DNA of 64,000 bases from a virus, in the IMG/VR virus record IMGVR_UViG_3300009175_000013, positions 1-64,000 of that record; one strand, written 5' to 3'. Shown piece after piece: positions 2,488 through 60,423 of this stretch. Below the pieces are notes generated by a model. That model had not been told where the DNA came from, made no database searches, and saw only the letters and a list, made by a program, of their open reading frames with translations. The position numbers were made by a program, and so were the translations under genes. The stretch's first letter is position 1. The number at the start of each line of letters is the position of its first letter.

Positions 2488-2600
2488 CCTCTATGATGGC
2501 CAGATCTACCTAAACGTACGCGATGGGGTCTGCATGGGCGGGTTCTGCGTCCCCAGCAAGCTGAGCGCTAAGGTGCTCCGGAAGGCTGTGGCTGGTTATC

Positions 2601-2840
2601 TCAGTGTTCTGCAAAATGAGAACGCAGCGCCGCCAGCTCCTCCGGCGTAAGCTTGGACTTGGCGGCTTTGACCACTTTCTTGTGTGCCCGATACTTTTCC
2701 AGTTCCTCCCGGTACTTCTTCCGGTAGGGCTTCCAAACATTCTCAATAAAGTCCCGCATGGGCACAAACTTCGACCCGCTGCACAATGGGCAGAGGATCC
2801 GCCGTGACATGTCTTTCCATCTTTTGTCTGGTTCTCTCAT
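2601..2840 (-). CDS. small zinc-finger-like protein
   Basis: 79 residues. A CPLC pair lies near the N-terminus, followed by a highly charged helical region (KPYRKKYREELEKYRAHK) and a C-terminal helix (LTPEELAALRSHF). Its ATG overlaps the TGA of the upstream gene (ATGA at 2840-2837), indicating translational coupling. It directly precedes the vWA-like gene. Function unknown. Confidence 0.65.
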   Translation of the reverse strand: MREPDKRWKDMSRRILCPLCSGSKFVPMRDFIENVWKPYRKKYREELEKYRAHKKVVKAAKSKLTPEELAALRSHFAEH

Positions 2841-3256
2841 TTCTCATCCTCAATCTTTTTGGCGACGTCTCTAATTCGTGTGGATATTTCTAGCCTATCT
2901 TGTGCCGAGACAGGGTACTCATGCCCCAGGTTGGCCATAATAAGGGCCACACCCAGGACGCGTTCTGGTTCGAGGCCATGAGCTATGTTAATCTCCCCCA
3001 ATAATTTCTCCGATTGCTCACAGAGGTAATAAGCATGCTCGTCGTCAATCACGAAGAGCTCGCACCAACTGGTGCGGACTAGAAACATGGGCTTACAATT
3101 AGGTGATTCATAGTTCTCAGTTATTAGCCCATCTGAGTCCACCCCCACCAACACTCCAGACGAGAAGACGCGTTTACGCTGTGACCGCAAAGCGTCTCTG
3201 CGCTTCTTCATGTACTCTGCCACGGTAGGGACTACGTTGATGTCTTCTTCGCTCAT
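2837..3256 (-). CDS. hypothetical protein
   Basis: About 140 residues from MSEEDINVVPTV at ATG 3256. I chose this start because the frame upstream of it runs through a terminator-like hairpin. It is mixed alpha/beta in character, with a basic stretch (KKRRDALRSQRKR) at residues 17-29. No motif was recognised. It is the first gene after the tRNA-like region and is coupled to the next gene by ATGA. Confidence 0.65.
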   Translation of the reverse strand: MSEEDINVVPTVAEYMKKRRDALRSQRKRVFSSGVLVGVDSDGLITENYESPNCKPMFLVRTSWCELFVIDDEHAYYLCEQSEKLLGEINIAHGLEPERVLGVALIMANLGHEYPVSAQDRLEISTRIRDVAKKIEDEK

Positions 3257-3272
3257 ATGCTTTGAATACAGA

Positions 3273-3300
3273 AACGGCGGAGTTAGCACACTCCGCCGTT
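3273..3300 (-). terminator. strong hairpin, likely terminator of the tRNA-like transcript
   Basis: An 11-bp perfect stem (3273-3283 with 3290-3300) has a 6-nt loop. On the minus strand it follows the tRNA-like units and precedes the gene at 3256. The following T tract is weak (GTTTCTG), so termination may be partial. Confidence 0.6.
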
Positions 3301-3331
3301 CCGTTGTTATATCGTTTACAAGACGATTAAC

Positions 3332-3504
3332 GTGCTATTTCGACCTGCCAGTGAATCCGTTTAATCCAAGGCCTCAGTCTGAATGCCACCTGCTTTTCCT
3401 CTTAGCTACCCCGACGGAAGGTTAAACGGTAAGCGTCGGGGACTGGATTCGAACCAGTGATCGGTGGTGGAGGGTGCCTTGGAACTCGACCTGGCAACCA
3501 GCAC
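3332..3504 (-). tRNA. circularly permuted tRNA-like unit B
   Basis: The order on the minus strand is inverted relative to a normal tRNA. The T arm comes first (ACTGG-TTCGAAT-CCAGT, 3458-3442), then acceptor 3' strand CCCCGAC (3441-3435), a spacer of about 17 nt, acceptor 5' strand GTCGGGG (3415-3409), D arm GCT...AGC (3406-3392) and stem strand GGTGG (3390-3386). GGTGG pairs with CCACC (3470-3466) upstream of the T arm. The outer flanks also pair in nested order: GTGCT 3504-3500 with AGCAC 3336-3332, TGCCAG 3496-3491 with CTGGCA 3351-3346, and TCCAAGGC 3483-3476 with GCCTTGGA 3372-3365. All of this is direct sequence reading. The anticodon cannot be assigned because the break lies in the anticodon loop. 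That a mature tRNA is made is inference. Confidence 0.7.
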
Positions 3505-3512
3505 TATTGTCT

Positions 3513-3748
3513 GAGTCTGGAGCGATAATCTGAGTCTGAATGCTCTCAACGGGTATTAGCCGCCGCGTCTGCCAGTTCCGCCACCCCGCTATTAGACCCA
3601 CCCGCAGTTTAGGCATGCAAACCGGAACTTCCGGGATCCAAGATCCACTATCTGCACAAAGGGTGGGTCTAATAGCGGGGGCAGGAATCGAACCTGCACG
3701 AGAGCGAAGTTGAGTCTGAATCTTCTGCTCAGCTTACGCTCAAAACTC
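3513..3748 (-). tRNA. circularly permuted tRNA-like unit A (Leu-type, class II)
   Basis: The 3' half comes first: T arm GCAGG-TTCGATT-CCTGC (3697-3681) and acceptor CCCCGCT (3680-3674). After a spacer comes the 5' half: acceptor AGCGGGG (3590-3584), a Leu-like D arm (3581-3565), and anticodon arm GGCGG-CTAATAC-CCGTT (3564-3548). The break is in the variable arm: GAGAGC (3547-3542) pairs with GCTCTC (3705-3700). The acceptor pairing continues into a 20-bp perfect inverted repeat (3680-3661 with 3603-3584). The flanks also pair: GAGT 3748-3745 with ACTC 3516-3513, GAGCG 3741-3737 with CGCTC 3524-3520, TAA with TTA, and CTGAG 3732-3728 with CTCAG 3534-3530. Canonical loop spacing gives anticodon AAT; a one-base shift gives TAA (Leu). 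Amino-acid identity is therefore uncertain. Confidence 0.72.
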
Positions 3749-3766
3749 TACTTGGGCGATCAGTCT

Positions 3767-4504
3767 CTAATTGCCCAAGATAAAGTCAAAAATCTCCTTT
3801 CCGACCGACACGTCAGAGACGGCGATCTGATTAGCAACTTGCTGTGCCGACTTGACCGCCTCCAAAAGCTTCGTCACCTTCTCCAGGAGCTTCTGCCTCT
3901 CAGAGGCGGGAACCGCACCAGACATGTGCGTCGTCGACCAATTGCCGACGAATACATCCTTGGTGATAGTTTTGACCTGCGCCGGGTGCTTGTCCGTGGC
4001 TTCCGACATCACCAGCGGGACTTCCGTCTTGACCGTCTTGTTCTGCGTCACCGGGTCGGTAACATAGAACCCGCGATTCGAGTCAAACTTCCAATCGAAC
4101 GTCGGATCCAAGACCGGCATCTTGTCGATGAAAGTCTTGACGTCAGTAAGCTGCTTGTCCAAGAACAACAAGTGCGTCACCGGGACTTTCGCCAGGATCG
4201 TCTTCCCATCCACCACAACGTCCGCCTTCGCCTCGCAGTTGGCAGTGTCCTGAGTGGCCACCACATCGAGCAGCGAAGTCCAGACCTTGGCCGCTTCCTT
4301 CAGCCCATCCGTGGCGACTTGCTGCACCCGCTTATTCTCAGCGGGAAGCTTCTCGCCGTTCTCCAGGTCCGAGGGGGTGTAGGACCGCGACAGACCCGTG
4401 CACAGGGCTTCCTTGGTCACCCGGTGATGGATCTCCGTGATCCTGGCCTGGGTTTCGGACTTCCGACCATTGACGATGGCGATGATTTGGCACAACCTGG
4501 CCAT
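3767..4504 (-). CDS. DUF7873-like protein
   Basis: 245 residues. The start MARLCQIIAIVNGRKSETQA and the internal stretches NCEAKADVVVDGK, VTHLLFLDKQL and EATDKHPAQV resemble the DUF7873 family as I remember it (actinobacterial and phage proteins of unknown function). No catalytic motif is evident. It lies immediately upstream of the tRNA-like units on the same strand, so they could share a transcript. It ends in TAG at 3769-3767, 19 nt before the first paired flank of unit A. Confidence 0.7.
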   Translation of the reverse strand: MARLCQIIAIVNGRKSETQARITEIHHRVTKEALCTGLSRSYTPSDLENGEKLPAENKRVQQVATDGLKEAAKVWTSLLDVVATQDTANCEAKADVVVDGKTILAKVPVTHLLFLDKQLTDVKTFIDKMPVLDPTFDWKFDSNRGFYVTDPVTQNKTVKTEVPLVMSEATDKHPAQVKTITKDVFVGNWSTTHMSGAVPASERQKLLEKVTKLLEAVKSAQQVANQIAVSDVSVGKEIFDFILGN

Positions 4505-4582
4505 GTTTTCTCCTTAAATTGAGACTATTGTTGGTTTCTTTCGCCGATACCTAGTGCGACCGACGGCTGCGGGCAGCAAATC

Positions 4583-4948
4583 CTACTTAACAGACTCATC
4601 CTGATCGTCGGCGTCAGCCTCGCCGCAGATTGTCTTCAAATACGCTTGAATCGCGTCCACCCCAAGATCATTGTCCATCGGCTTAAACTCGCCCACCGTA
4701 GTCAACCCATAAATATCAGCCAGCAAAAATGGCCTAGTAGAAGCCCCAGAAAATATCGACCCACAAAACATCTCCGCACCCAACACCGTCCGCGCCACCT
4801 CCCCATTATAAATAGCCAGCCGGCCATTGGGTGGCTGAATAATAAACCATGCACTGGGATTATTAGGATCGTCACAAGGGCGGATCATCCCATGGTCGTC
4901 AAGACTGACAATGCCCATAATAGATAAATTAGCCTTGACTTTAGGCAT
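4583..4948 (-). CDS. hypothetical protein
   Basis: 121 residues, beta-rich with an acidic tail (ADADDQDESVK). The N-terminus reads MPKVKANLSIMGIVSLDDHG. Its start overlaps the stop of the gene at 4948-5469 (TAATG), so the two are translationally coupled. No family recognised. Confidence 0.65.
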   Translation of the reverse strand: MPKVKANLSIMGIVSLDDHGMIRPCDDPNNPSAWFIIQPPNGRLAIYNGEVARTVLGAEMFCGSIFSGASTRPFLLADIYGLTTVGEFKPMDNDLGVDAIQAYLKTICGEADADDQDESVK

Positions 4949-5469
4949 TAACGACTCAAATCCTTCTGCAAATCATAATCGATATCGTGGAGCAGCGACT
5001 GTGCAATCAATGCAGTCAAATACTCCTCACGATTAAACTCCCCATGAGTCTGACCCCACTTATCAATAGCCTGGCTAATTATAATCCGGTCCACCGCCGA
5101 TAATTTCGTTTGGCAATCCGGATCAATCCAATAACGATTGCTATCTGTAGCGACAGTTGCCCCAGAGCCGTTCCAATAGATCAATGCCACGATTACAGCG
5201 GCTACCCCATGATTAGGTTTCGTAGCATCAACAGGAAACGCCAACTGTCCCCGATAATCCAGCGCCGCCACCCTCACCACATGGGCGCTGATGATGTTTT
5301 TGACACTCCCCAGATACGGCTTAGGCGTTCTCTTGAAGGCCGCCGGTTCACACCAAAAAGTGGCTTGCATGATGTCTTGAGCCTTTTCTATAGACCAGGT
5401 GCACTTGAGCTTCCTATGCTCACGAGTGCAACAGGTGGCTGACAAATTGACATTGATCTCGCAGCTCAT
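4948..5469 (-). CDS. hypothetical protein
   Basis: 173 residues with Cys residues near the N-terminus (SCEINV, TCCTREHRKLKC). The middle reads VVAALDYRGQLAFP-like, and the C-terminus is helical (EEYLTALIAQSLLHDIDYDL). It is divergent from the plus-strand gene at 5494. No motif recognised. Confidence 0.6.
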   Translation of the reverse strand: MSCEINVNLSATCCTREHRKLKCTWSIEKAQDIMQATFWCEPAAFKRTPKPYLGSVKNIISAHVVRVAALDYRGQLAFPVDATKPNHGVAAVIVALIYWNGSGATVATDSNRYWIDPDCQTKLSAVDRIIISQAIDKWGQTHGEFNREEYLTALIAQSLLHDIDYDLQKDLSR

Positions 5470-5493
5470 ATTAGCCCAGCGTATCTTATAGTG

Positions 5494-6214
5494 ATGAACA
5501 TCTTAGACATAATCCGTGGCCAACACAAACCACCGGAGGATGCCATCGAAACTGACTACTCACCGGCACTTCTAAAATACTTTCTTATCACCTGCGAATC
5601 GCATGAATATGGTGGCCCCACAGAGAAAATGTCCGCCAAGAGCCTCGCCTGCCTAACCAAAGCATTCTGCTCCTCAGACCAACTCCCAGGAGAAGAACAA
5701 TCCGGATATGAACGGCACGACACCTTCGGCGTAGTCAGCACCCAAATCGGGAAACACAAGCATGTCACGGTACTCGACTGCGATAGTACCGACGCAGTTC
5801 TTGCCGCCGCCCACTGGTGCTATCCTCAACATAAAATGCCAGCCAGTCGAGAGCAGCCCAGGCCACTTCTGGCTGATTACCGACCAAGTAGGAACTATCG
5901 GCGACATCATCTCAGATATGCTCCAAATCCCAGGAGTCGACAAAGAATTCACACGCATGAACAACGAGCGGAAAAGCATCCACATCCGCGTCACACCCAG
6001 ACTAAGTGGCGGCAAATCCAAAACCATCATCACACCCAAGTTCAAGGATGACTGCCAGCTGATCCATCCGCTCGCCGTCACCTGGTACAAAACCTTCAAA
6101 GCCCACTTCGAGTCCGACTCCTACAAGATGATGTATAAATCCATCCTACTCCGCCACCACATCAAACATGGGACCGTCAGTACAATCGCCTCTGACCCTT
6201 CTTTCGAGGTATAA
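5494..6214 (+). CDS. hypothetical protein with an apparent +1 frameshift
   Basis: The first part starts at ATG 5494 (MNILDIIRGQHKPP...) and reads well to about 5835 (VLDCDSTDAVLAAAHWCYPQHK). The sensible sequence then continues in the +1 frame (CQPVESSPGHFWLITDQVG... to FEV) until TAA at 6214. The switch falls in AAAA at 5833-5836. Together this gives about 240 residues. It could be a programmed +1 shift, a recent mutation, or a sequencing error in a short homopolymer. Function unknown; the C-terminal half carries a HIRVTPRLSGGKSK stretch. Confidence 0.6.
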
Positions 6215-6215
6215 A

Positions 6216-6770
6216 ATGTTAACCGATAACGACATCGCCAAACACGAAACCATCCTTCGGAAAATCGCAGAAGCACGCTACGACCCCATCGCCCACATGA
6301 CCCCCGACGTGGGCCTGGTAAAACATGAGCAAAGCTTCATCCGGACCTATAACCGAGTGCATCCCCTACACATTAAGAAAATCTGGTACCGCCCACCCTA
6401 CCAGAATTGCCGTAGCCCAGGAGCAGGAGCCATCGATTGCCTCATCGCCGACTTCAGCGATGGCTTCAATCTCATCGACGTCACCCAAATTGGCGCGGTC
6501 AATCCTAAATGGAAAATGGCTGACTTCGATAAGCTCGACCATTACAAGTATGGGGGCATCATCGTGGAACCATCTACACTCTACTACGCCCTAGGCCTAA
6601 TTGAAGACGCCAAGATCACCGACTTCTTATTTTATTATTCCGATAAGCTTCTAAAAGAGGCACGCTTCATCGAAGCTACTACTGTACGCCACTTACTCTG
6701 CGAGCGAATCGCCCAGCGCGTATGCGGTAAGATCAGCGTCCCCTCCATCCATTGGACTAAGAGCTGGTAA
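6216..6770 (+). CDS. hypothetical protein
   Basis: 185 residues from ATG 6216, preceded by GAGG. The core segment (CRSPGAGAIDCLIADFSDGFNLIDVTQIG) is unusually regular and could be a nuclease- or protease-like fold, but no diagnostic set of residues is clear. It follows the frameshifted gene with a 1-bp gap, so the two form a plus-strand pair. It ends convergently, overlapping the minus-strand gene at 6757 by 14 bp. Confidence 0.6.
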   Translation: MLTDNDIAKHETILRKIAEARYDPIAHMTPDVGLVKHEQSFIRTYNRVHPLHIKKIWYRPPYQNCRSPGAGAIDCLIADFSDGFNLIDVTQIGAVNPKWKMADFDKLDHYKYGGIIVEPSTLYYALGLIEDAKITDFLFYYSDKLLKEARFIEATTVRHLLCERIAQRVCGKISVPSIHWTKSW

Positions 6771-7107
6771 CTGAATCACAGAATTTGCGCACCGCCGCCA
6801 CCGCAATCTCCCTCGCACTCCCAGGAATGACACTCCGAGGCCCCCATTCGCCCACCGTTTCGGAAATATTATTCCACCAATACCTAAAACTAGGCTTGAT
6901 GCGCGGGTCAGGATCACACACCATAAAAATTAAAATCGGCGACTCACGAGCACGATCCCCCAAATAAATGTCCGCCTTGACAATATCAATCAGGTGCTGC
7001 CCCTCCTTCAGCCTTTTATTGACCTCGTGTACCAGCCCCTTAGCTGTATGGTACGACAGATCGGCAATGTTAACCGCAAAGATTCTGCCATGAGCCTCAA
7101 TCAGCAT
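6757..7107 (-). CDS. hypothetical protein
   Basis: About 117 residues from ATG 7107 (MLIEAHGRIFAVNIADLSYH). There is no good ribosome-binding site. The frame is continuous with the upstream gene at 7135 apart from a single TAG at 7137-7135, so readthrough or a split gene is possible. The sequence is mixed alpha/beta with a PDPRIKPSFRYWW stretch. No family recognised. Confidence 0.5.
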   Translation of the reverse strand: MLIEAHGRIFAVNIADLSYHTAKGLVHEVNKRLKEGQHLIDIVKADIYLGDRARESPILIFMVCDPDPRIKPSFRYWWNNISETVGEWGPRSVIPGSAREIAVAAVRKFCDSVTSS

Positions 7108-7134
7108 AACCAACCGTGCCGCCGCACCGCGCTC

Positions 7135-7668
7135 CTAGCAACTTCTGTTCACGAAGTCACGCACCGCTCTTTGGGCCACCGCCAACGCCGCTTGCGTTAC
7201 CCGAAATTTACTACCCACATACAGCTGATTCCCATGATAGTTTGTCATCCAGAATTTCCCCCTTCCATTGTATGCCACATTAATCCGGCAATCGTATTGC
7301 GCTATCGACTGTGCCGATTGCCACCTAGCATTGATGTAAAATCGCAAAGATGTAGGGGTGGACATCGGCTGCACCCCCACCAGTTGCGCAGCCATCAAAG
7401 TCGGGTATACGCGGCGGATTGTGGGCATGACCAGCTTCTGCCACTTGACGAAAGAAGCCTGCATGAGCGAGGGGCCATAAGTCGGCTCCGGCCCCAAGAC
7501 AGGCGGCATCCCCCACTGCACCTCCAATGTAAATATTATCCGATCATTCCCAGGATCAGCATAAGCCCCCGAATGTGGAACAATCAGTCCATTTTTCTCG
7601 ACAGCCGCCAAGCCGCCACAGAAAACGCTGCGGAAAGAACGACACGCTGTGGGTTGCGATCTTGACAT
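7135..7668 (-). CDS. capsid-motif protein (gp23-like fragment)
   Basis: 178 residues from ATG 7668. Residues around 85-120 (MPTIRRVYPTLMAAQLVGVQ then PMSTPTSLRFYI) closely match the T4 gp23-family signature also seen in the major capsid protein of this window (LPLIRKSYARLISDNLVGVQ then PMSQPASLIFYI). The rest does not match a full HK97-fold capsid protein, which would be about 500 residues. It could be a truncated capsid paralogue, a decoration or vertex protein, or a decoy. The gene starts back-to-back with the plus-strand gene at 7682 across a 13-bp TATATAATA-containing spacer. Confidence 0.6.
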   Translation of the reverse strand: MSRSQPTACRSFRSVFCGGLAAVEKNGLIVPHSGAYADPGNDRIIFTLEVQWGMPPVLGPEPTYGPSLMQASFVKWQKLVMPTIRRVYPTLMAAQLVGVQPMSTPTSLRFYINARWQSAQSIAQYDCRINVAYNGRGKFWMTNYHGNQLYVGSKFRVTQAALAVAQRAVRDFVNRSC

Positions 7669-7681
7669 AGGTATATAATAC

Positions 7682-8029
7682 ATGACGTTCGACCCATACA
7701 ACCAGTGGTTCATCGGCGGAAACATGAACAATCGCATCGCCTGCGGGTGGAAAGGCTTCTACCTAGAATGGTGCGACGGGAAAACCCTCTGCGTCTATGA
7801 CGTCTTTGGGATTAAGTATAAAATGCCCCTCACCGACTTCAAACTAACCTGCATCGAAACCCGATCCATCATCTTCCCCTGGACTATCGACAAAGGCTAC
7901 CTTAAAATCACCCACCCCAATGGCTCCCTGAGCATCTGCCCCTGGGAAATCTATGAAGCCAGAGCTGGCCTCAAATCCATCCGCCTCCCCCTCGACAACT
8001 TTGAATTTATGATTACTATGCCGCTCTAG
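7682..8029 (+). CDS. hypothetical protein
   Basis: 115 residues, rich in aromatic residues and beta-prone throughout (FYLEWCDGKTLCVYDVFGIKY). It overlaps the convergent gene ending at 8016 by 14 bp. No motif recognised; it ends in TAG. Confidence 0.6.
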   Translation: MTFDPYNQWFIGGNMNNRIACGWKGFYLEWCDGKTLCVYDVFGIKYKMPLTDFKLTCIETRSIIFPWTIDKGYLKITHPNGSLSICPWEIYEARAGLKSIRLPLDNFEFMITMPL

Positions 8030-12146: not shown

Positions 12147-13763
12147 TCATTTGGTCGCAAACACCAAAATCGGTTCAAACGTCTTTTCCCGCCCCATAAA
12201 GCTCGCCGTCTTCATCTCAATACGATCAACAAGTCTGCGACCGCACTTAGCCGCCACCCCCAAACACATTTCCTCCTGTCTCTTCGGCAAATTTAAAGCC
12301 ACCATTCCCCTAAACTTACTCAAAATATTCTCAACGATCGGCTTCGTCAACGTCTTAGAACTATCAATCCCAAAATAATGCTCAGTATCATCATAGGGTG
12401 GAGAAGTCAACAACAAATCGCCATCAGGAAAATCGCACACAGTAGCATCAGCAACACTAAACTGCGGTTCACTCAAAAACCGAGCACCAACAAATTTCCT
12501 AAGATTAACATGAGAATCAATCACATTCTGATTGAGATCGGACCCCAGATATTGATATTTAGCGTCAATAGTCCCAAGCAATCTCCCACCCCAACCCATA
12601 CAAGGATCAACAATCACACCGCCAGATGGAAGATACTTATCATAAACGCCGCGAGCAACCCACGGTTTAAAGATGGAGACTGCCGCAAAGTCCTTATAAA
12701 ACTTAATGATTGAGCTAATAAATCCATATATGGCGACTTCAGATTTAATCGCCCACGCCCTCTCAATGGCGTTTCTTAGAATTGATGTATTGCCGCATTC
12801 CCACGCCGCAGTAACTGGCAGATACCCTTTGTGGGTAGATCTCCAATAATGCTGGCTAAAATGCTTAATCAGGCTAACCGCGCTATCATTCTGGAAATTG
12901 GCATTAAATTGCGCACCACCTGGCGATTTATATCCATCCAACCCACCACGCAATATGTGGCTCGGATATTGAGGTGGCATAAACCCATAATTAAGAAGCC
13001 AATCGGCACAACTGCCTGGAGTATTCCAGATTAATTTCCAGTTGCAACAATAATATCGATCAGCATCCTGAATCACAATTTTATAATAATCACCAAACTT
13101 GCCGAGATCGGCGGAGTTTGCTGCTGCCACCAGCATATCGCGCACCACTACACGCCGATTCGGCCCTGGCTCATGAGCAATTGAGATACCATCTGGCTCA
13201 ATATAATACTCATAATTACAGTATTTAACTTTAATGCCAGATTTAACCGACTTGCCAGTACTGGGAATAACAAAAGCCTTGACCGGAGCATCCACACTCC
13301 GCTGTGGACTCCTATGCAGTGCTTTTATTCCATACCTAGCCGCCACTGCACAGACAGTATTCGCCCGCACCCCAACCATGGAAGCTATCTTCCTAAATGA
13401 ATATTTATTGGCTAACTCAGCAAACTGCTCGCGATCATTTAGTATGCTTGGCCTCTTAGCATCATCCATGGATCTGAATTTCATTTCTGGTTTATACTTA
13501 AGCAGTTGCCGCTTAATCCTGGCCACTGGCGCGCAATATGCCTTATGAAGAGCATCTAGACTGGCCCCGGCCACATAGGCACCATAAACCTTGGCGATCG
13601 GCAACAATTTTTCGATTGATTTGTGCCGCCCGGCTATGCCATGTTTTTTACAAATTACCGATACAACACCCGGCGCAGTCCCCAATTGTGCCGCAACGGA
13701 TGACATCGATATGCCATCTACCTCAACCATCTGCCTAATCATATTTATATCATACTTGCCCAT
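12147..13763 (-). CDS. DNA methyltransferase with N-terminal helix-turn-helix repeats
   Basis: 538 residues. The catalytic part is C-terminal. DPCMGWGGRLLG (about residue 385) is the S-adenosylmethionine motif I in DPxxGxG form, and LLTSPPYDDTEHY (about 455) is the TSPPY motif IV of N4-cytosine or N6-adenine methyltransferases. The N-terminal third has at least two HTH-like units (SMSSVAAQLGTAPGVVSVIC and SFRKIASMVGVRANTVCAV), which could supply sequence specificity. The middle 170 residues are Trp-rich and unassigned. The start overlaps the stop of the double-HNH gene (ATGA at 13763-13750 region), so the two genes are likely co-translated. Base modified and target site unknown. Confidence 0.8.
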   Translation of the reverse strand: MGKYDINMIRQMVEVDGISMSSVAAQLGTAPGVVSVICKKHGIAGRHKSIEKLLPIAKVYGAYVAGASLDALHKAYCAPVARIKRQLLKYKPEMKFRSMDDAKRPSILNDREQFAELANKYSFRKIASMVGVRANTVCAVAARYGIKALHRSPQRSVDAPVKAFVIPSTGKSVKSGIKVKYCNYEYYIEPDGISIAHEPGPNRRVVVRDMLVAAANSADLGKFGDYYKIVIQDADRYYCCNWKLIWNTPGSCADWLLNYGFMPPQYPSHILRGGLDGYKSPGGAQFNANFQNDSAVSLIKHFSQHYWRSTHKGYLPVTAAWECGNTSILRNAIERAWAIKSEVAIYGFISSIIKFYKDFAAVSIFKPWVARGVYDKYLPSGGVIVDPCMGWGGRLLGTIDAKYQYLGSDLNQNVIDSHVNLRKFVGARFLSEPQFSVADATVCDFPDGDLLLTSPPYDDTEHYFGIDSSKTLTKPIVENILSKFRGMVALNLPKRQEEMCLGVAAKCGRRLVDRIEMKTASFMGREKTFEPILVFATK

Positions 13764-14520
13764 GATTCGCCTTTATATCATTAATCCATTTTATAACACT
13801 TAAATCATCAAACGTTGATCTAGCCCTATTAATGGCTTTCAAAACCAATCTAATATTAGTAACTAGGTATCCGATTTTATTATCAATTCGATCAATAGAT
13901 AAGCTAAGACATGGGTGGGCATAGCATGCCATTTTAACCCCAGCGAGGGCGCATTCGCCATTCTGAGATCTATATAATTCCACTACCTTATCAGTATTAA
14001 TATCATTTTCGGCGAACTTGGCCTGGGCGTTTCGGACACAAGTTGAGATATAATCCCTACTAAACTTCTCTGGTTTAAATAAACTTGGATCTTTAATACA
14101 TTCTACAAAATATATCACATCCGCATTGGTGTGTCGATTCTTAGCTAGGTTAATGCCCCTACACACTAACTGGGTATTAAGTTTAGTGTGCCCAATAGAA
14201 TTGTCAATGCGATCGATCGATAGAGACCAAAGTGAAAAATCGTGCGTGAGAGTTAGACCAGAAATCGCACACTTTTCATTGGTACTATATAACTTATTGA
14301 TAAATCCCAGGTCTAAATCGCAGCCCCTACCCTTGGATTTATCCTCCAGAATCGCCTGCCAAGCATGCCTGGTAATCCATGATCTCCACGTTCTTGTGTA
14401 ATATAAGTGATTGTGTTTGGACTGCTCAATAGACCTGCCAGCCCTACACTTCTTGACATATTCTCTGTTGCGATGCAACCTCTCATCGTTTGTCATAATA
14501 CCTTTAATACATCGCGTCAT
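13750..14520 (-). CDS. endonuclease with two HNH-like domains
   Basis: 256 residues. Two similar HNH-like modules stand in tandem: KCAISGLTLTHDFSLWSLSIDRIDNSIGH (about residues 75-105) and ECALAGVKMACYAHPCLSLSIDRIDNKIGY (about 190-220). Each is followed by an N-rich tail (RGINLAKNRHTN and LKAINRARSTFDD). Single copies of this pattern are typical of phage homing nucleases, so a double copy is unusual. It is transcribed with the methyltransferase and overlaps it, suggesting either a restriction-modification-like pair or a nuclease whose site is protected. The N-terminus is basic. Confidence 0.75.
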   Translation of the reverse strand: MTRCIKGIMTNDERLHRNREYVKKCRAGRSIEQSKHNHLYYTRTWRSWITRHAWQAILEDKSKGRGCDLDLGFINKLYSTNEKCAISGLTLTHDFSLWSLSIDRIDNSIGHTKLNTQLVCRGINLAKNRHTNADVIYFVECIKDPSLFKPEKFSRDYISTCVRNAQAKFAENDINTDKVVELYRSQNGECALAGVKMACYAHPCLSLSIDRIDNKIGYLVTNIRLVLKAINRARSTFDDLSVIKWINDIKANHGQV

Positions 14521-14586: not shown

Positions 14587-16128
14587 TTACAGATTCGATA
14601 CGGTGATGGTGGCATAGTAAAGTCCACCATCTTCTATCAACTTCTTACCATACCGCGTCATGATGCCCTTGCTCGGCGTATAGGAGTTTGGATCCAATAC
14701 GGTCGGGGTCGAGAGGAGGGGGATGTACGGAGCATAGAAGTATCCAGCATCCAGGACCGAATTGCCCTTATAACCCAAGAGGATCTTGCAGTTGGGGAAC
14801 AGCGGGTCCTTGAAGAGCTGGAGTTTGCCCTGGATGGTGCCGGCGTTCATGATGCCGATATCCATGCCTTCGTCGACCATGGCGTCGGAGCCACGGAAGT
14901 CGTTGAGCTGCTCGAACTTGGAGCTGATGTCCGCGGAGGTGACCATCCAGTTGGCGGGGCCACGGAGGGTGGTCCGGTGGATGATGTTGGCAACTTCGAG
15001 GACTTTGTAGAGCAGAGCGATGTTGCGGTCGGTGAAGTTGACGGAGGCTCCGGCGGCGGTGGCGAAGTTGTGGGAGGCCCGAATTGCCGCACTGATAATC
15101 AGGTCGTTGATGATTTCACGGTCGATTTCGGCGACCATTTCATCAGCCATCAAATCGGTGAGGGTGGATTCGGCGTCGATGTTGTGTACGGCCTTGAGGT
15201 CTTGGGCGGCTTCCAGCGACCAGGCGGTCTTGAGCTTGCGGGTAACGGCGGCGACGGAGTCGCTGTCGATGCTCAGGGTGAGTTCGGGCTGGAAGGGGTT
15301 GGCTTCGAGGTCGTATTCGTAGTTGACGCGGGCGAATGCGCCGACTGGGAAGGTTCCAGCATCGAATTTGACTTTGAGTTCGCCGGTGGTGTTGCTGAAG
15401 CTGGAGTAGGAGGTATCAACGGTGATACCGGAGGTGACATCGCAGCCTTCGCCGAGGACTACGACATCGACTGCGCCGTCGGAGTCGAAGGTGACTTGGA
15501 CGCAGGGGACCATGTTTTCGCAGGTGGCGCTCTTCTGGGCGAGGTCGTAGACGTTGAGGACTACGGTGCCGGCGAGTACTGGGCGGTGTTGGAGGATGTG
15601 ATCGACTTTGTTGGCGGCGAAGGTGGTGACGTCTTCGTCACGGACTTGCTGCGAGGAGTAGTAGGGGTCGAGTGCCCAGCCGTTTTGCTTGGCGAAGGTT
15701 TGGCTGGTGTTTTGACGCATGATCTGGGTTCCGGCGACCGTCTGGCCCTTGGTGAGGGCGTAGCGGTAGCGGATGTAGAAGATCAGGCTGGCGGGCTGGC
15801 TCATTGGCTGGACGCCGACGAGGTTGTCGGAGATCAGGCGAGCGTAGCTCTTGCGGATGAGGGGGAGGGCGAACCGGGTGAAGTCGGCGACGTTGCCGGT
15901 GGTGGTGACGTCTTCGAACAGCACGGTGCGGTTTTTGGGGTCCCAGGCCTTGTGCTGGTTTTCAAGCAGGGTGGCCATGAGGCCGAGTTTGCCCTTCTTG
16001 ATTTCGCGGCACTTCTGGAGGACTGGGCTCCAGCGGGCGACGTCCTGGTTTTTCTTGGATTCGGCCAGGACTGCGGCTTTGTGGGAGTCGCGGGTTTCAG
16101 TGATTGTGGTTTTGACGTGTTCTGCCAT
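14587..16128 (-). CDS. major capsid protein (T4 gp23-like, HK97 fold)
   Basis: 513 residues. The signature FALPLIRKSYARLISDNLVG then VQPMSQPASLIFYIRYRYA is the conserved N-arm/spine region of T4 gp23-type capsid proteins. Length matches gp23 (about 520). An LxE sequence (L21-A22-E23) near the N-terminus could be a prohead-protease cleavage site; this is inference. Order agrees with T4: portal, protease, scaffold, capsid. A GGAG site (GGAGAAATACCC before ATG 16128) sets the start, and a strong terminator follows. Assembles into the icosahedral shell around the scaffold. Confidence 0.93.
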   Translation of the reverse strand: MAEHVKTTITETRDSHKAAVLAESKKNQDVARWSPVLQKCREIKKGKLGLMATLLENQHKAWDPKNRTVLFEDVTTTGNVADFTRFALPLIRKSYARLISDNLVGVQPMSQPASLIFYIRYRYALTKGQTVAGTQIMRQNTSQTFAKQNGWALDPYYSSQQVRDEDVTTFAANKVDHILQHRPVLAGTVVLNVYDLAQKSATCENMVPCVQVTFDSDGAVDVVVLGEGCDVTSGITVDTSYSSFSNTTGELKVKFDAGTFPVGAFARVNYEYDLEANPFQPELTLSIDSDSVAAVTRKLKTAWSLEAAQDLKAVHNIDAESTLTDLMADEMVAEIDREIINDLIISAAIRASHNFATAAGASVNFTDRNIALLYKVLEVANIIHRTTLRGPANWMVTSADISSKFEQLNDFRGSDAMVDEGMDIGIMNAGTIQGKLQLFKDPLFPNCKILLGYKGNSVLDAGYFYAPYIPLLSTPTVLDPNSYTPSKGIMTRYGKKLIEDGGLYYATITVSNL

Positions 16129-21788: not shown

Positions 21789-24686
21789 CTATTGGTCTTT
21801 CTGGACCAATATATTATAAATCTCTGTGGCAGCTTTCTTCCGCACTTCCTTAGAGATGCTGTGCTCAATGATGAGCTTCTGCTCAGCACCCTTACGAAGG
21901 CCATCAACTTCATGGAAACTAAGCACATGCTGGTATGCCGAGTTGGTCACGCCATTACGTTTTTCGTCAAGTTTCTCGATGAATTCCCGAATCATCTTGC
22001 CGCGGCGCATCTTCCTCTGCTCCGAAATCAGCCGTTTGTAGTCGTGGTCTAGTCTTTCGCCTAGGCCACCTAGTCCACCAGCTCCGGCACCCGCGCCTGC
22101 GCCTCCGGCACCTGCTCCAGCTCCAGCTCCGGCTCCAGCTCCTAGGCCAGCCCCAGCACCACCAGCTGGCGGTTTGCCGAGACCCTTATCCATCCCGCCC
22201 TCTTTCTTATCCTTATCCCCAGCAATCTTCGGCAACTTATCAGCACCACCAGGAGGCGGCTTGGGTGCTCCACCCAATCCCCCGCCGCCACCGCCCAGCC
22301 CACCCTCTTCATCCTGTAGATCACCAGCTTCCGACATAATTGCAGATAGCTCATCGATCTCATCTGGGCTAAGATCCGAAAACCGCGTGACAATCCATTC
22401 CTTTGGGAACCATCCCAGTTCCTTCAGGTCACTCATCACTGCAGTACGGCTCTGCCAGGTTTCCATACGGTATAGCTCATCGATAGCGCTGGAAGCACTC
22501 ATCCCGATCTCAAACCCTTTGAGATCTTCAATGGTGAATCCCTTCATGGCCAGATGGCAGATAGCAACTTTGGTGAGGCCCATTGCGACTTCGCGCTGAA
22601 CCCATTGTACTGATTTGGCGAATTCGGCATCCGTGGAGGAAAGGGACTTGCCCTGCTCTTCACCCGCGCCCTCACCAATGCCCACTCGCTTAAAGGGGAT
22701 CTTGGTTGGTGCAACCATCTTCTTTTTGAAGTATTCGATGTCCTTGATTTGGTCAAGGTTCTCGGCCCCCTCGAGAGTGTCGATGCTCGGGGCAGTCCCA
22801 TCGGGACGAACCGGCAGGAAGAAATCATCTTCCTGGATGAGTGGGGAGAACCGCTCGTTGAACTGGCCAGTGCGGGGATCGTAGAATTTCTGCTGTTTGA
22901 ACATCCGGGCCACGGCCTGCATGAATTCTGGGATGTCTTTGGCAGCGATATTGCCCACTGGGATCTTGAAGATTCTTTTCTCAGGAGCCCTAGTGATACG
23001 GTAGATGAGGGCCGCATCTTCCATGAGCCGGAGTTGTTTGAAGGCTTTGCGTCCACCTTCCATAATCGCCCGACCATATGGGTGATAGATGTTGGCGTAG
23101 TCGGTCAGGCGGAGGTGCATGACCTGCCATGGGTGCATAAATTGGGGTTCTTCCATTACTTCATCTTGGTGGAAGAATCCTACTAGGTCACCGTGCTTGG
23201 TTTCAATGCGGGTGAAGTTGTACACGTTAACGAAACGAAGGGATGCCACTCCATCGCGATCACGCGTGGGGACGATCTCATATGGGGCGTCGCCATATTT
23301 GCACAGGTACCTGACCATGGGGCGGACGTAATTGTCGATGAGAAGCTGGCTAAAGAACAACTCTTCGAGGGCGTGCTTGACGGCGTGGGTTTTGGCCTTG
23401 ATTACGATGGTGTGCTTGCGTTCGGGATCTACTAAACTGGCTTCGTCACTATTGTGGACAATAATCCATGACGACTCAGTACCGGCTGCAAAGCAATTAT
23501 ATCCATCAACTTCGATATCATATACCTCAGTAGCGGATTCGCAGGGCGTAACCGAGATAACTTTGTGATTACCAACAGCGGCCATTCTAAAATCAACTAG
23601 ATTAGTATTATGCCTTTCAAACAGCCTAAGAATAACTCGCTGAGCACATCCCAGATTGTGTGCTATTTTGCGCACGCTACCCAGATCGCCACCATTATTA
23701 ATGTAATTTAATAAATCATCCCAGGTAACCACTGAATATTCGGCTGTCCTGCGGAAAGATTTACCACTTAGGTTCAATTGCATTCCGCGATTGCGGCAAT
23801 GTGGAGCCATTTTGCATCTATATTCTGAGTTTTGCCATTTCAATTTGGCCGCCTCAGAACACTTAATACGCTTTGATTCGCGGGCCTCACCAGTTAATTT
23901 ACCAAGACCTCTGTGCAACTCGGCATGGTCTGCCCACGTCATCAATTTGAAATTTTCTGGTGAATTATTATACTTATTTAAGTCACAATGGTGTATTACA
24001 CCCTTGCGCTCACCAAACAATTTCTCCCACACCCATTGGTGGGTGGCCTGCCACCTCTGATCTTCTAATTGAATAAATTCATATTCACGATTTACCAACC
24101 CATCATGCAATTTTGATAGGGGCGGCTTTCTGGTTTTATATAATGGAACGACTGATTCGCCAGCGCTTAACTTAGCCGCCTCGACCCAGCCATTTTTCTT
24201 AGTTAAAATTTTATGGTTAGGGGTGCATTTAATAGTCAATCCATCATCAAATAACACTTCAACCATTTTAGCATTGCGACCAGAAACATGGGGGTTCCTG
24301 GCTTTAGCTGGCACATACCGCCCATTTGTAACGTCATAGGCATACACCCAAAATTCGGCATCTATCCCTTTGCTAGCTAATTCTCTAATAGTTGGGTGTG
24401 TTCCATCAAGCAGTGGGATTATGGTATCACCATGCAAACAATATAGATCGAGGGCCAGGGACATTTCCCCGGTTTCATCCATTTGGTCGTAGTCTTTGTA
24501 CCGCTCCAGCCGGTTGATTTGGAGGTTGGTCTGGTTCAGGAGCATCTGCTGCTGGTTGAAGTTCAGCAGTTCATTGCCTGCCATGATGCGTAGCAGGTCA
24601 GATTGGTCCTGGAATAGACGCTCTTGCTGATAGATATTAGCTGAGCGTGCTAGGGATCTGATTCTATCAAATAAATGCCAGCTCAT
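21789..24686 (-). CDS. portal protein (T4 gp20-like) with an intein
   Basis: 965 residues as read; about 635 after intein removal. The N-terminal extein (residues 1-82) ends in SLALDLY, and the C-terminal extein starts SDEASLVDPE, together restoring the LDLYSDEA motif of T4 gp20-type portals. Further portal features: RKHTIVIKAKTHAVKHALEEL, then a long central domain with the DDFFLPVRPDG stretch. Residues about 830-880 are a Gly/Ala repeat (GAGAGAGAGAG), and the C-terminus is a charged coiled coil. The portal forms the 12-fold vertex for DNA entry and neck attachment. It ends in TAG. Confidence 0.93.
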   Translation of the reverse strand: MSWHLFDRIRSLARSANIYQQERLFQDQSDLLRIMAGNELLNFNQQQMLLNQTNLQINRLERYKDYDQMDETGEMSLALDLYCLHGDTIIPLLDGTHPTIRELASKGIDAEFWVYAYDVTNGRYVPAKARNPHVSGRNAKMVEVLFDDGLTIKCTPNHKILTKKNGWVEAAKLSAGESVVPLYKTRKPPLSKLHDGLVNREYEFIQLEDQRWQATHQWVWEKLFGERKGVIHHCDLNKYNNSPENFKLMTWADHAELHRGLGKLTGEARESKRIKCSEAAKLKWQNSEYRCKMAPHCRNRGMQLNLSGKSFRRTAEYSVVTWDDLLNYINNGGDLGSVRKIAHNLGCAQRVILRLFERHNTNLVDFRMAAVGNHKVISVTPCESATEVYDIEVDGYNCFAAGTESSWIIVHNSDEASLVDPERKHTIVIKAKTHAVKHALEELFFSQLLIDNYVRPMVRYLCKYGDAPYEIVPTRDRDGVASLRFVNVYNFTRIETKHGDLVGFFHQDEVMEEPQFMHPWQVMHLRLTDYANIYHPYGRAIMEGGRKAFKQLRLMEDAALIYRITRAPEKRIFKIPVGNIAAKDIPEFMQAVARMFKQQKFYDPRTGQFNERFSPLIQEDDFFLPVRPDGTAPSIDTLEGAENLDQIKDIEYFKKKMVAPTKIPFKRVGIGEGAGEEQGKSLSSTDAEFAKSVQWVQREVAMGLTKVAICHLAMKGFTIEDLKGFEIGMSASSAIDELYRMETWQSRTAVMSDLKELGWFPKEWIVTRFSDLSPDEIDELSAIMSEAGDLQDEEGGLGGGGGGLGGAPKPPPGGADKLPKIAGDKDKKEGGMDKGLGKPPAGGAGAGLGAGAGAGAGAGAGGAGAGAGAGGLGGLGERLDHDYKRLISEQRKMRRGKMIREFIEKLDEKRNGVTNSAYQHVLSFHEVDGLRKGAEQKLIIEHSISKEVRKKAATEIYNILVQKDQ
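23451..24440 (-). other. intein in the portal protein, with HNH homing endonuclease
   Basis: 330 residues (portal 83-412). Block A is CLHGDTIIPLLDG with Cys1. Block B is LTIKCTPNHKILT (TxxH type). Block F/G is ATEVYDIEVDGYNCFAAG then SSWIIVHN, with His-Asn at the end and Ser as the +1 residue. All splicing residues are present, so it should splice. Between them lies an HNH nuclease (GVIHHCDLNKYNNSPENFKL then MTWADHAELH, intein residues 148-176) and an HTH-like segment (LGSVRKIAHNLGCAQRVI). Insertion is inside a conserved portal motif. Confidence 0.9.
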
Positions 24687-45920: not shown

Positions 45921-46943
45921 CTATATTTTTGATTTCGAATTAATTATAATTTTACAGATAACCCCAAGGTCCAACGGTCTCACCGAATTTTCAAACATCG
46001 TACGTATTTCCTTCCGATCCATATGAACATGTTCATATAGCTCATTAAAGTCCTTCGTCACCCCACCGTCATATTCAAGCTTCGGCGGCACCGCATAATA
46101 GACCTTGAAATAGGGCGACAGCAGCTTATAGTTCGCCACCAAACTCACCAATCCTGGATCATCATTGTCCGGGGCTAAAATTACTCCATTGGCTGGGTTC
46201 AACGCCCGCAACTTCTTGACCTGCCTCTCCACTATCGAAGCCCCACCCGTAGCCACCGCCTGATCGCCCAGAGTCATGCTGCCAAAGATAGCCTCCGTCA
46301 CAATCACATAATCACCCGGCTCCACCATATCAAAACCATACAGAAACATTCCCTTGCTCACCCCCACACTCTCGGGCGGAAAGCGGAAAGACTTGTTGAG
46401 ACGATCTCTCTCCTGCCAATACACCAAAGAGCCATACTCAAAATAGGGCCAGACCACGTACATCGAGTGGTAAGACAGCTTATGCCGCTCCACCATTTCT
46501 AGCGTCACCCCTCTGGTCTGTAGCCACCCCAGCAGCCCTTTGGCGCACCCGTCCTGCTGATTCTCAAACAATAGCTTAGAGCCGGTAGGCAAAGCGACGC
46601 TGGTCTGGGCTTCCTCTTCTTTCTCCTCCTGCTCCTGCCGCCGGAGTTTACGATAGATAGAAGAGAGGCTTGTGTCTTGCCCACAGACCTCACGAGCCGC
46701 CTCCACGTAGGAGCAATTTCGATAGAGCTGCACAAACCGCAGGAAAGTGCAGCCCTTCCCACCAGCCCAGGTATCACCACGCCAATCGTGAAGCACTGCT
46801 TTTGAACAGCTTATTTCCAGCTTTTTACTATCGTTCTCATACCACGGATTGGCTATGAGCAATTCGTCGCCACCTTTCCGTGACTTATAATCGAAATTCT
46901 TGGTCACCCAAGCATAGATCTGTTCGGGAGTGGGTTTATGCAT
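45921..46943 (-). CDS. DnaG-like primase with TOPRIM domain
   Basis: 340 residues. The TOPRIM core is VIVTEAIFGSMTLGDQAVAT then GG ... ILAPDNDDPG: first Glu, then the DxD-type acidic pair. The N-terminal 110 residues resemble the start of phage primases but lack a clear zinc ribbon. C-terminal helicase motifs are absent, so this is primase only. Lies between two homing endonuclease genes; its start overlaps the end of the zinc-HNH gene. Ends in TAG. Confidence 0.75.
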   Translation of the reverse strand: MHKPTPEQIYAWVTKNFDYKSRKGGDELLIANPWYENDSKKLEISCSKAVLHDWRGDTWAGGKGCTFLRFVQLYRNCSYVEAAREVCGQDTSLSSIYRKLRRQEQEEKEEEAQTSVALPTGSKLLFENQQDGCAKGLLGWLQTRGVTLEMVERHKLSYHSMYVVWPYFEYGSLVYWQERDRLNKSFRFPPESVGVSKGMFLYGFDMVEPGDYVIVTEAIFGSMTLGDQAVATGGASIVERQVKKLRALNPANGVILAPDNDDPGLVSLVANYKLLSPYFKVYYAVPPKLEYDGGVTKDFNELYEHVHMDRKEIRTMFENSVRPLDLGVICKIIINSKSKI

Positions 46944-58796: not shown

Positions 58797-59558
58797 TTAG
58801 TACCGGTAAATCATGCTGGCATAGGGGTCATCTGACAACAGTAGGGCTTTCTCGTAAACCTCTTTCTGCAGCTCATACCCCTTAGTCTTCATGGCATCAC
58901 CATCCAGTGTCAGAGAGCCACCATCTGGACTTGGGATGCCACCGAACTTCCCACGGGCGTTGCCGAGCATGATCATGGTCTCGGCTAGCATAAGATCATA
59001 CACTAGCAGTTTGTTGGCCGGCGTACGCCATGTTGAGATCGCTGGGATATAGATCACGAAGACTGGAAACGATCCCTTGGGCGTGGGATATAGCCGGATC
59101 TTATTGTCGCCCAAACACTCCCAGTGACCCTCATTACCCAAAATGCGTTGGCTGAACCGGCGATATTGTTGCAGTAGTGTGTAGTCAGTAAGGATGGTCT
59201 GGATGCCAGTGATGTTTCCAATGTTTGCTGCGATAGACTTGGGGATACCGAGTCTTCGCCGATTTTTGTCCATTAAATCAGAATGCGGTGGAACCGAACC
59301 ACAAGATCGCAGGCACGCTTCTTCCCATGATTTCCCATGGTTAGCATCACCAGAAATAAAGTGGGCCATTTCGTCAGCCACAACATCGCCGGCGGCAGCA
59401 GTACAAAATTTATATTGTGATAAGAATATCTCCCCCGTGTTTAAGTCAGTAAACGCTCCCACATTTGCAATTGGAGCGAGCCTTATTTTTAGATTTCGGT
59501 ATAAATTTGCATTTGTAGTAACATCCTGCTCTCTGGGAATAGGCATAGTGGTGTTCAT
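58797..59558 (-). CDS. neck protein gp13-like, C-terminal part of a fractured gene
   Basis: 253 residues from ATG 59558 (GAGG at 8 nt). Residues about 115-253 look like the C-terminal part of a gp13-type neck protein: NIGNITGIQTILTDYTLLQQ, RILGNEGHWECLGDNKIRLY, LMLAETMIMLGNARGKFG then GIPSPDGGSLTLDGD. The first about 110 residues (including DVVADEMAHFI and ACLRSCGSVPPHSD) are unrelated as far as I can see. The start overlaps the 3' end of the endonuclease gene by 113 bp in another frame. The N-terminal half of the neck protein is encoded at 60460-61173. Confidence 0.7.
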   Translation of the reverse strand: MNTTMPIPREQDVTTNANLYRNLKIRLAPIANVGAFTDLNTGEIFLSQYKFCTAAAGDVVADEMAHFISGDANHGKSWEEACLRSCGSVPPHSDLMDKNRRRLGIPKSIAANIGNITGIQTILTDYTLLQQYRRFSQRILGNEGHWECLGDNKIRLYPTPKGSFPVFVIYIPAISTWRTPANKLLVYDLMLAETMIMLGNARGKFGGIPSPDGGSLTLDGDAMKTKGYELQKEVYEKALLLSDDPYASMIYRY

Positions 59559-60423
59559 GCGATACCTCGCTGAGTTCTTCTTTACTTTTGAACCATAATG
59601 TATAAGTTGTCTCTGGCTTAAGAGCTACCGGATTAACAAACTCAATCATGTTGGCATTAAACCCACCCAAGAATAATTCGTACCCAGCTTCACGCTCTTG
59701 TGCTGTCACTCCACGAAATTTTGCCCCAGCGTTTTTTGCAGCTTGAGATGCGTATAGATATTTATCTAGTGGTATCATGTTTTCGGCTGGTTTGACTTCA
59801 ATCCAACAATCTCCATTCGGTGATTGCACCGAAAAGTCCACAAAATACGTTCTTTGTTTGCCAGTTAACCTGTCAGCATATGGCACTCTAATTAGCTCAT
59901 AGTCCCAATTCTCAACAGATGTGTCGCTATCGAGTAGCAAAGCATAAGATAGCTCGTGAAGCGACTTGAAAAGATGAGGTCCATATCCATATCGTGACTT
60001 AGCTTTGTTGATTTTCTTGATGGTTTCTGGATTACACCCTGGGTGCCTATAACCAGTCTTCAACAAATACCTAAGCTGCATAGCCGCCGCCGCATGCTTG
60101 GGAGGCTTCTTTAGACCATATTTTCGAATTTTAGACCGGACAGTGTTAAAATGCAACCCCAACGATTCGGCTATGGTCTTTGCGTCTTTGTTCGCAATCA
60201 AGTATTCATTATATAAATATTTAGGGGTTAGAACTGATGTGTCTTTTCTGGTTTTAATAAACTCGGCATAGGCTATAGAGCTGTGGTTATGAAGCGAGGT
60301 ATCAACACCCAACTCCTTTAACTTACGTTTAACTGTTATTGGTGCACAACCGAATTCGCTTGCGCATTGCTTTAAAGTATGAGATGTGAAATACGCAACA
60401 AGTCGTGAGCAATCAATATTCAT
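59446..60423 (-). CDS. PD-(D/E)XK homing endonuclease inserted in the neck gene
   Basis: 325 residues. Two N-terminal HTH-like units (TLKQCASEFGCAPITVKRKL and DAKTIAESLGLHFNTVRSKI). The nuclease core is LHELSYALLLDSDTSVENWD ... RTYFVDFSVQSPNGDCWIEV then KP, giving Glu, Asp and the ExK pair expected of this fold. Freestanding nucleases of this kind between split gene halves are known from fractured-gene arrangements with split inteins. Start lacks a strong ribosome-binding site. Confidence 0.75.
   Translation of the reverse strand: MNIDCSRLVAYFTSHTLKQCASEFGCAPITVKRKLKELGVDTSLHNHSSIAYAEFIKTRKDTSVLTPKYLYNEYLIANKDAKTIAESLGLHFNTVRSKIRKYGLKKPPKHAAAAMQLRYLLKTGYRHPGCNPETIKKINKAKSRYGYGPHLFKSLHELSYALLLDSDTSVENWDYELIRVPYADRLTGKQRTYFVDFSVQSPNGDCWIEVKPAENMIPLDKYLYASQAAKNAGAKFRGVTAQEREAGYELFLGGFNANMIEFVNPVALKPETTYTLWFKSKEELSEVSHEHHYAYSQRAGCYYKCKFIPKSKNKARSNCKCGSVY

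Follow-up and report, generated by a model that had tools for sequence, protein, structure and literature searches.

A non-coding region of this phage genome carries two circularly permuted tRNA units in tandem, and we consider it rather likely that the region makes one structured RNA of about 0.4 kb, linked to DUF7873, whose two permuted tRNA-like domains would be cut by RNase P into pieces and serve as a tRNA mimic. At the level of sequence and covariation, the comparative data show permuted acceptor, T and D modules, a core around domain B (P_C, AUCRA/UUAAAYG and P_B) and a genomic link to DUF7873. This looks like a new RNA family, kept in large phages and in some bacterial replicons, and not like a translating tRNA. 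A literature search that covered few subscription papers and preprints found no description of the element, which does not prove its absence from the literature.

The window, 64,000 nucleotides of IMG/VR record IMGVR_UViG_3300009175_000013, is part of a 74.6-kb viral contig from a large myovirus-like phage, whose gp23-type capsid protein is nearest to that of an uncultured 595-kb phage genome (36% identity). On the minus strand, about 480 non-coding nucleotides between a 245-residue gene (4504-3767) and the next gene (3289-2837) hold unit A (3697-3542) and unit B (3458-3386). In both units the 3′ half is encoded before the 5′ half and a 7-bp acceptor stem is closed by a spacer; unit A is interrupted in its variable arm and unit B in its anticodon region (Table 1). 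The spacer lengths given in the initial annotation, 83 nt in A and 19 nt in B, are exact, and the cut positions proposed there, 3590 and 3673, fall exactly at the acceptor ends of unit A. The acceptor helix of unit A extends beyond the acceptor strands into the spacer, forming a perfect inverted repeat of 20 bp (3584-3603 with 3661-3680). Shuffling the window 20 times never produced a perfect repeat of 16 bp around a loop of up to 100 nt. Folding of 3766-3290 with RNAfold formed the acceptor, T and D arms of both units (z = -3.4) and paired the flanks of the units with each other.

Table 1. Features of the element and its surroundings, in window coordinates.
Feature	Position	Strand	Details
DUF7873 (PF25283) gene, 245 aa, directly upstream	3767-4504	-	Pfam E=9.5e-93; co-occurs with the RNA in tested genomes
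Outer helix of unit A, 5′ strand GAGCG, then YAAG	3737-3741	-	pairs with 3524-3520
(UNANNN)n six-base-period array, upstream of unit A	3709-3735	-	U and A every 6 nt in 30 relatives
Unit A variable-arm 3′ strand GCUCUC	3700-3705	-	pairs with 3547-3542
Unit A 3′ half: T-arm and acceptor 3′ strand	3674-3697	-	T-arm GCAGG-TTCGATT-CCTGC 3697-3681; acceptor CCCCGCT 3680-3674
Unit A spacer (83 nt), caps the acceptor stem	3591-3673	-	between the acceptor strands; 13 more pairs prolong the helix
Unit A 5′ half: acceptor 5′ strand, U8G9, Leu-like D-arm	3565-3590	-	acceptor AGCGGGG 3590-3584; D-arm 3581-3565
Unit A closed anticodon-position arm	3548-3564	-	GGCGG-CUAAUAC-CCGUU
Unit A variable-arm 5′ strand GAGAGC	3542-3547	-	
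Downstream (UNANNN)n array and AUCGCUCCAG	3511-3541	-	conserved in relatives
Unit B element, full-length match to covariance model R1	3335-3500	-	86.8 bits, E=1.5e-20
P_C 5′ strand UGCCAG	3491-3496	-	pairs with CUGGCA 3351-3346; 95.5% paired in relatives
Conserved core, 5′ side GUCGA (consensus AUCRA)	3486-3490	-	
P_B 5′ strand UUCCAAGG	3477-3484	-	one fixed register, 84-98% paired in relatives
Unit B 3′ half: T-arm and acceptor 3′ strand	3435-3458	-	T-arm 3458-3442; acceptor CCCCGAC 3441-3435
Unit B spacer (19 nt)	3416-3434	-	
Unit B 5′ half: acceptor 5′ strand, D-arm, open-helix 5′ strand GGUGG	3386-3415	-	acceptor GTCGGGG 3415-3409; GGUGG pairs with CCACC 3467-3463
UNARNNCURA internal-loop strand and P_B 3′ strand CCUUGGA	3365-3385	-	
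Conserved core, 3′ side UUAAACG	3358-3364	-	
P_C 3′ strand CUGGCA	3346-3351	-	
11-bp hairpin at the element end, possible transcript end	3273-3300		terminator scan calls the + strand only

Finders of tRNA genes expect the halves in their usual order, which is why the element falls in gaps without annotation: ARAGORN and Rfam, including the linear cloverleaf RF00005, detected neither unit in the window, and Rfam gave no group I intron or other family in the flanks of the units. Comparison of the region with phages by blastn returned short matches only, one of them to a tRNA-Leu, and a DNA pattern of the shared motifs gave chance matches only in IMG/VR, apart from a duplicate contig. The latter, IMGVR_UViG_3300025316_000097, is 100% identical to window positions 2517-7504 over the 4,988 bases compared, and is a duplicate assembly of the same phage.

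To find relatives, a DUF7873 alignment was used, which drew 347 from IMG/VR; the best 80 of these 347 were kept. A script scanned the loci for a T-arm, an acceptor 3′ strand, a spacer, a matching acceptor 5′ strand and a D-arm. As a match had to have UUC, U8, GG and paired acceptor strands, conservation of these features is partly selected for, and only P_B, P_C, CCA, A14, synteny and strand bias count as independent. Permuted units lie directly downstream of DUF7873 in 76 of these best 80 viral loci, usually two in tandem. Of the four viral loci missed by the script, two (L128 and L174) gained a unit B in a covariance-model search, and in the last two (L124 and L125) the same model places the element about 9 kb from DUF7873. 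Over all fetched loci, viral and bacterial, the DUF7873 strand carried 208 unit matches; neither the reverse strand, scanned over 1.9 Mb, nor shuffled sequence had any. In L213 (2767-2954, minus strand) a full-length element lies 1.4 kb from DUF7873 and on the other strand, which indicates that the placement of the RNA with respect to the gene can change.

Units were present in ten of the eleven named phages checked: Gordonia phages Phendrix and Ziko, Rhodococcus phage NiceHouse, Arthrobacter phage Mimi, Rhizobium phages RHph_TM21B, RHph_Y1_11 and RHph_TM16, Klebsiella phage FBKp24, Vibrio phage D472 and Pseudanabaena phage PA-SR01, where they lie about 0.6 kb downstream of DUF7873. Some named phages have a single tRNA head instead of two, and in Microcoleus phage My-WqHQDG, which has DUF7873, the script saw no adjacent unit. 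Bacterial DUF7873 loci with units include those of Nocardia, Streptomyces, Frankia, Ktedonobacteria and others, as well as one Streptomyces plasmid, and the synteny spans phages of actinobacteria, proteobacteria and cyanobacteria. None of the deposited records of the named phages annotates the element correctly. The tRNA-Sup-TTA annotated in FBKp24 (46041-46120; L208 4015-4094) lies inside permuted unit B and is probably spurious. In loci of Streptomyces and Streptacidiphilus, ARAGORN calls a tRNA-Phe across unit A; these calls have mismatched stems and are spurious.

The secondary structure of unit B was derived from an alignment of 33 elements of relatives, those with short spacers. RNAalifold gave 32 base pairs, and compensatory changes, one or more for each pair, occur in 29 of them; the share of paired cells is 94.4%, compared with 67.2 ± 1.0 after shuffling and 36-44% when the partners were slid, and the covariation score is 0.778 versus 0.237 in shuffled alignments. 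Besides the acceptor, T and D stems, the structure has two helices outside the tRNA part, P_C and P_B, which share in the compensatory changes and neither of which the scan selected for pairing. P_B is highly paired in its fixed register, while most other registers give 13-62%. The internal loop between P_C and P_B, AUCRA opposite UUAAAYG, is highly conserved, and A14, which the scan did not demand, is invariant in the alignment. Pairing of the flank helices is locus-specific, being present within loci and absent between them (z = 25.6 and 18.7).

Covariance model R1, built without the window sequence, matches unit B over its full length as the sole strong match in 75.6 kb; this match and the neighboring DUF7873 gene place unit B in the DUF7873-linked family. 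Among 28 whole records, strong full-length R1 matches were confined to carriers of DUF7873, and the 11 records without the gene gave at most partial matches, of the same kind as come from neighboring ordinary tRNAs. The AlphaFold model of DUF7873 is confident (pLDDT 91); a search with its fold returned no significant PDB or viral match, so the fold gives no functional clue.

Unit A is of class II (Leu-like), with a closed arm at the anticodon position and a break in the variable arm, in the window and in some relatives; in other relatives the break is at the anticodon position. Its flanks have U and A recurring with a six-base period on both sides, and its outer helix GAGCG/CGCUC is found in many relatives and covaries in a subset of them (GGAGCG/CGCUCC, GUAGCG/CGCUAC and GAAGCG/CGCUUC). 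R1 matched unit A of the window over the T-arm only; the assignment of this unit relies on the pairing within it and on class II units at the syntenic position in L091, L093 and L100. A repeat, TTCAGAC, was considered as a Leu anticodon and rejected, as it is part of the six-base-period motif and stands at a variable distance from the stem. In L188 (the same locus as L100) and L138, the anticodon-position or variable arm of unit A ends in a tetraloop of the GNRA type (GAAA, GCAA), as in structural RNAs.

Would-be anticodon loops were compared in the 75 units whose stem at the anticodon position has 5 bp or more. Of these units, 28 have U33 (37 when taken from either half) and 44 have R37, compared with 265 and 280 of 284 ordinary tRNAs from the same loci; both are near chance in the units. 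The open stem ranges from less than 4 to 9 bp, the anticodon arm of unit A in L188 is a 3-bp stem with a GAAA loop, and rejoining the halves does not restore a canonical anticodon arm (5 bp, 7-nt loop, U33, R37). The elbow and acceptor modules of a tRNA are kept and its decoding features are not, and the permuted units are probably not decoding tRNAs. The initial annotation spoke of a split tRNA; these data do not support a decoding tRNA as the product. As the anticodon loops are non-canonical and the flanks conserved, the flanks would stay in the mature RNA.

The initial annotation had also speculated that such a molecule might escape host anticodon nucleases, for which we found no support. 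The phage tRNAs known to evade anticodon nucleases (van den Berg et al., 2023, PMC10264068) are of the ordinary kind, with alterations in the anticodon loop. They share with the present units a tRNA-derived sequence and a tRNA-rich phage background, but the words 'permuted' and 'split' are absent from that paper.

The ends of the acceptor stems suggest how the RNA may be processed. CCA lies precisely one base past the acceptor strand, after the discriminator, in 64 of 134 non-redundant units (other offsets, 0-2), and base -1 of the 5′ half is U in 65 of 115. Together with the perfect acceptor stems, these features agree with the permuted order and spacer-capped stem described for both units in the initial annotation. 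The commonest spacer is 7 nt, often NCCA followed by three bases. About half of the units have no encoded CCA, among them both units of the window, where addition of CCA by the host would be needed. CCA is also a recognition element for bacterial RNase P, and for this reason an encoded CCA is no proof of charging.

This sequence evidence favors cleavage, and we propose that the RNA is probably cut by RNase P into base-paired pieces, as in two-piece tmRNA. Each acceptor stem would fold and RNase P would cleave at nucleotide +1 of each 5′ half, with 3′ processing exposing NCCA; in a 7-nt loop of the NCCA type, one RNase P cut would both make the 5′ end and leave a 3′ end near CCA. The idea in the initial annotation that cuts by RNase P and at the 3′ end could leave paired pieces with no ligation is compatible with this layout. 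It had the pieces held by the leader-trailer helix; holding by pairing fits the layout, but not by that helix alone, as the acceptor stem, the open helix and the conserved flanking helices P_B and P_C would also keep them together. The CCA ends may be aminoacylated, and the tRNA-like heads may imitate tRNAs, either toward a host factor that binds tRNA or together with DUF7873, rather than serve as adaptors in decoding. More tentatively, and with somewhat less than even confidence, we suggest that phages and mobile replicons have an unrecognized RNA-protein system, in which an RNA of three unligated pieces, with two permuted heads that are matured by RNase P and can be aminoacylated, would play a non-decoding role with DUF7873.

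An alternative that we regard as unlikely is that the RNA is never cut and acts as a decoy. The spacers would be kept, the permutation would hide the tRNA ends, and the molecule would mimic a pre-tRNA that occupies RNase P, a synthetase, EF-Tu or a tRNA-targeting nuclease. Retention of the elbow and acceptor modules with loss of the decoding features is consistent with this, as are the units without encoded CCA and the 13 pairs by which the spacer of unit A lengthens the acceptor helix in the window. However, NCCA at the exact mature end and the predominance of U at -1 resemble selection for cleavage and for a mature 3′ end.

Less probable again is maturation to ordinary tRNAs. Circularly permuted tRNA genes are known from red and green algae and one archaeon, where the transcripts are spliced at bulge-helix-bulge motifs via a circular intermediate (review PMC3978253). 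By analogy, the flanks of the phage units would be excised, the halves ligated to a circle, and an ordinary tRNA freed by RNase P and RNase Z. The gene order (3′ half, spacer, 5′ half, with the acceptor ends facing each other) is identical, and some B units could be joined to canonical loops, that of L111 giving CUUGUAA with anticodon UGU. On inspection by eye, no fixed bulge-helix-bulge motif was apparent at the phage units. Against this stand the frequencies of U33 and R37 and the range of open stem lengths given above, the class II A units broken in the variable arm, and the high conservation of flanks that would be discarded and look part of the mature RNA. Bacteria are not known to have the bulge-helix-bulge endonuclease. 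No RNA ligase was common to these phages, with RtcB in 2 of 16 records and T4-type RNA ligase in 2-3 of them.

Only a slim chance, slightly below that of ordinary tRNA maturation, is given to a tmRNA-like or otherwise ribosome-directed RNA whose charged heads enter the A site. Permuted ssrA genes give rise to two-piece tmRNA (Keiler et al., 2000; Sharkady and Williams, 2004, both cited in PMC3978253). Among well-known RNAs, tmRNA alone carries a tRNA domain that is permuted, in two pieces and set on a long helix of the P2 type (PMC3978253); the open helix of the units resembles P2. In both systems the 3′ half of the tRNA domain is encoded ahead of the 5′ half, a spacer caps the acceptor stem, the pieces can be kept by pairing without ligation, and a long helix replaces the anticodon stem. 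In contrast to two-piece tmRNA, the phage RNA has two tRNA heads rather than one and a complete D-arm, is encoded mainly in phages beside DUF7873, and has no Rfam tmRNA match at the element sites. The G3-U70 alanine signal occurs in 1 of 134 units, a count slightly biased by the scan, which allowed at most one G-U pair. An unsystematic look found no obvious room for an mRNA-like tag frame between the conserved helices, and L119 has a separate tmRNA about 2 kb away. In its working the phage RNA appears most like two-piece tmRNA, yet it fails the tests of Rfam match, G3-U70 and D-arm for one. Degenerate tRNA pseudogenes from tandem duplication would explain why ARAGORN and Rfam do not see the units, but are refuted by the strong covariation, the fixed-register helices and the synteny across actinobacterial, proteobacterial and cyanobacterial phages, and we give them practically no weight.

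Permuted RNAs of the tRNA type had been known from tmRNA genes, one archaeon and a small number of algae; the permuted version described here has two heads and is conserved in many phages, including cultured phages of Gordonia, Arthrobacter, Rhodococcus, Rhizobium, Vibrio and Klebsiella. DUF7873 gains a candidate RNA partner, the covariance model is available to annotate the family, and easily grown phages offer a testable case of a multi-piece unligated RNA.

Some further observations were made in the window and in a related large phage. The window has, besides the main capsid gene (14587-16128), a second, partial Gp23 capsid-like reading frame at 7135-7737 on the minus strand (Pfam E=2e-10). 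HNH or endonuclease VII matches in or beside structural genes (portal, head closure), at 21789-24686, 12147-13763, 13750-14520 and 59446-60423 (minus strand), suggest inteins or homing endonucleases. Among the ordinary tRNA genes of the related phage (L018), a structured stretch at 15605-15770, GGGAGCGTAAG...CTACGCTCCC, has the word GAGCGYAAG in common with the outer helix of unit A and is possibly another non-coding RNA.
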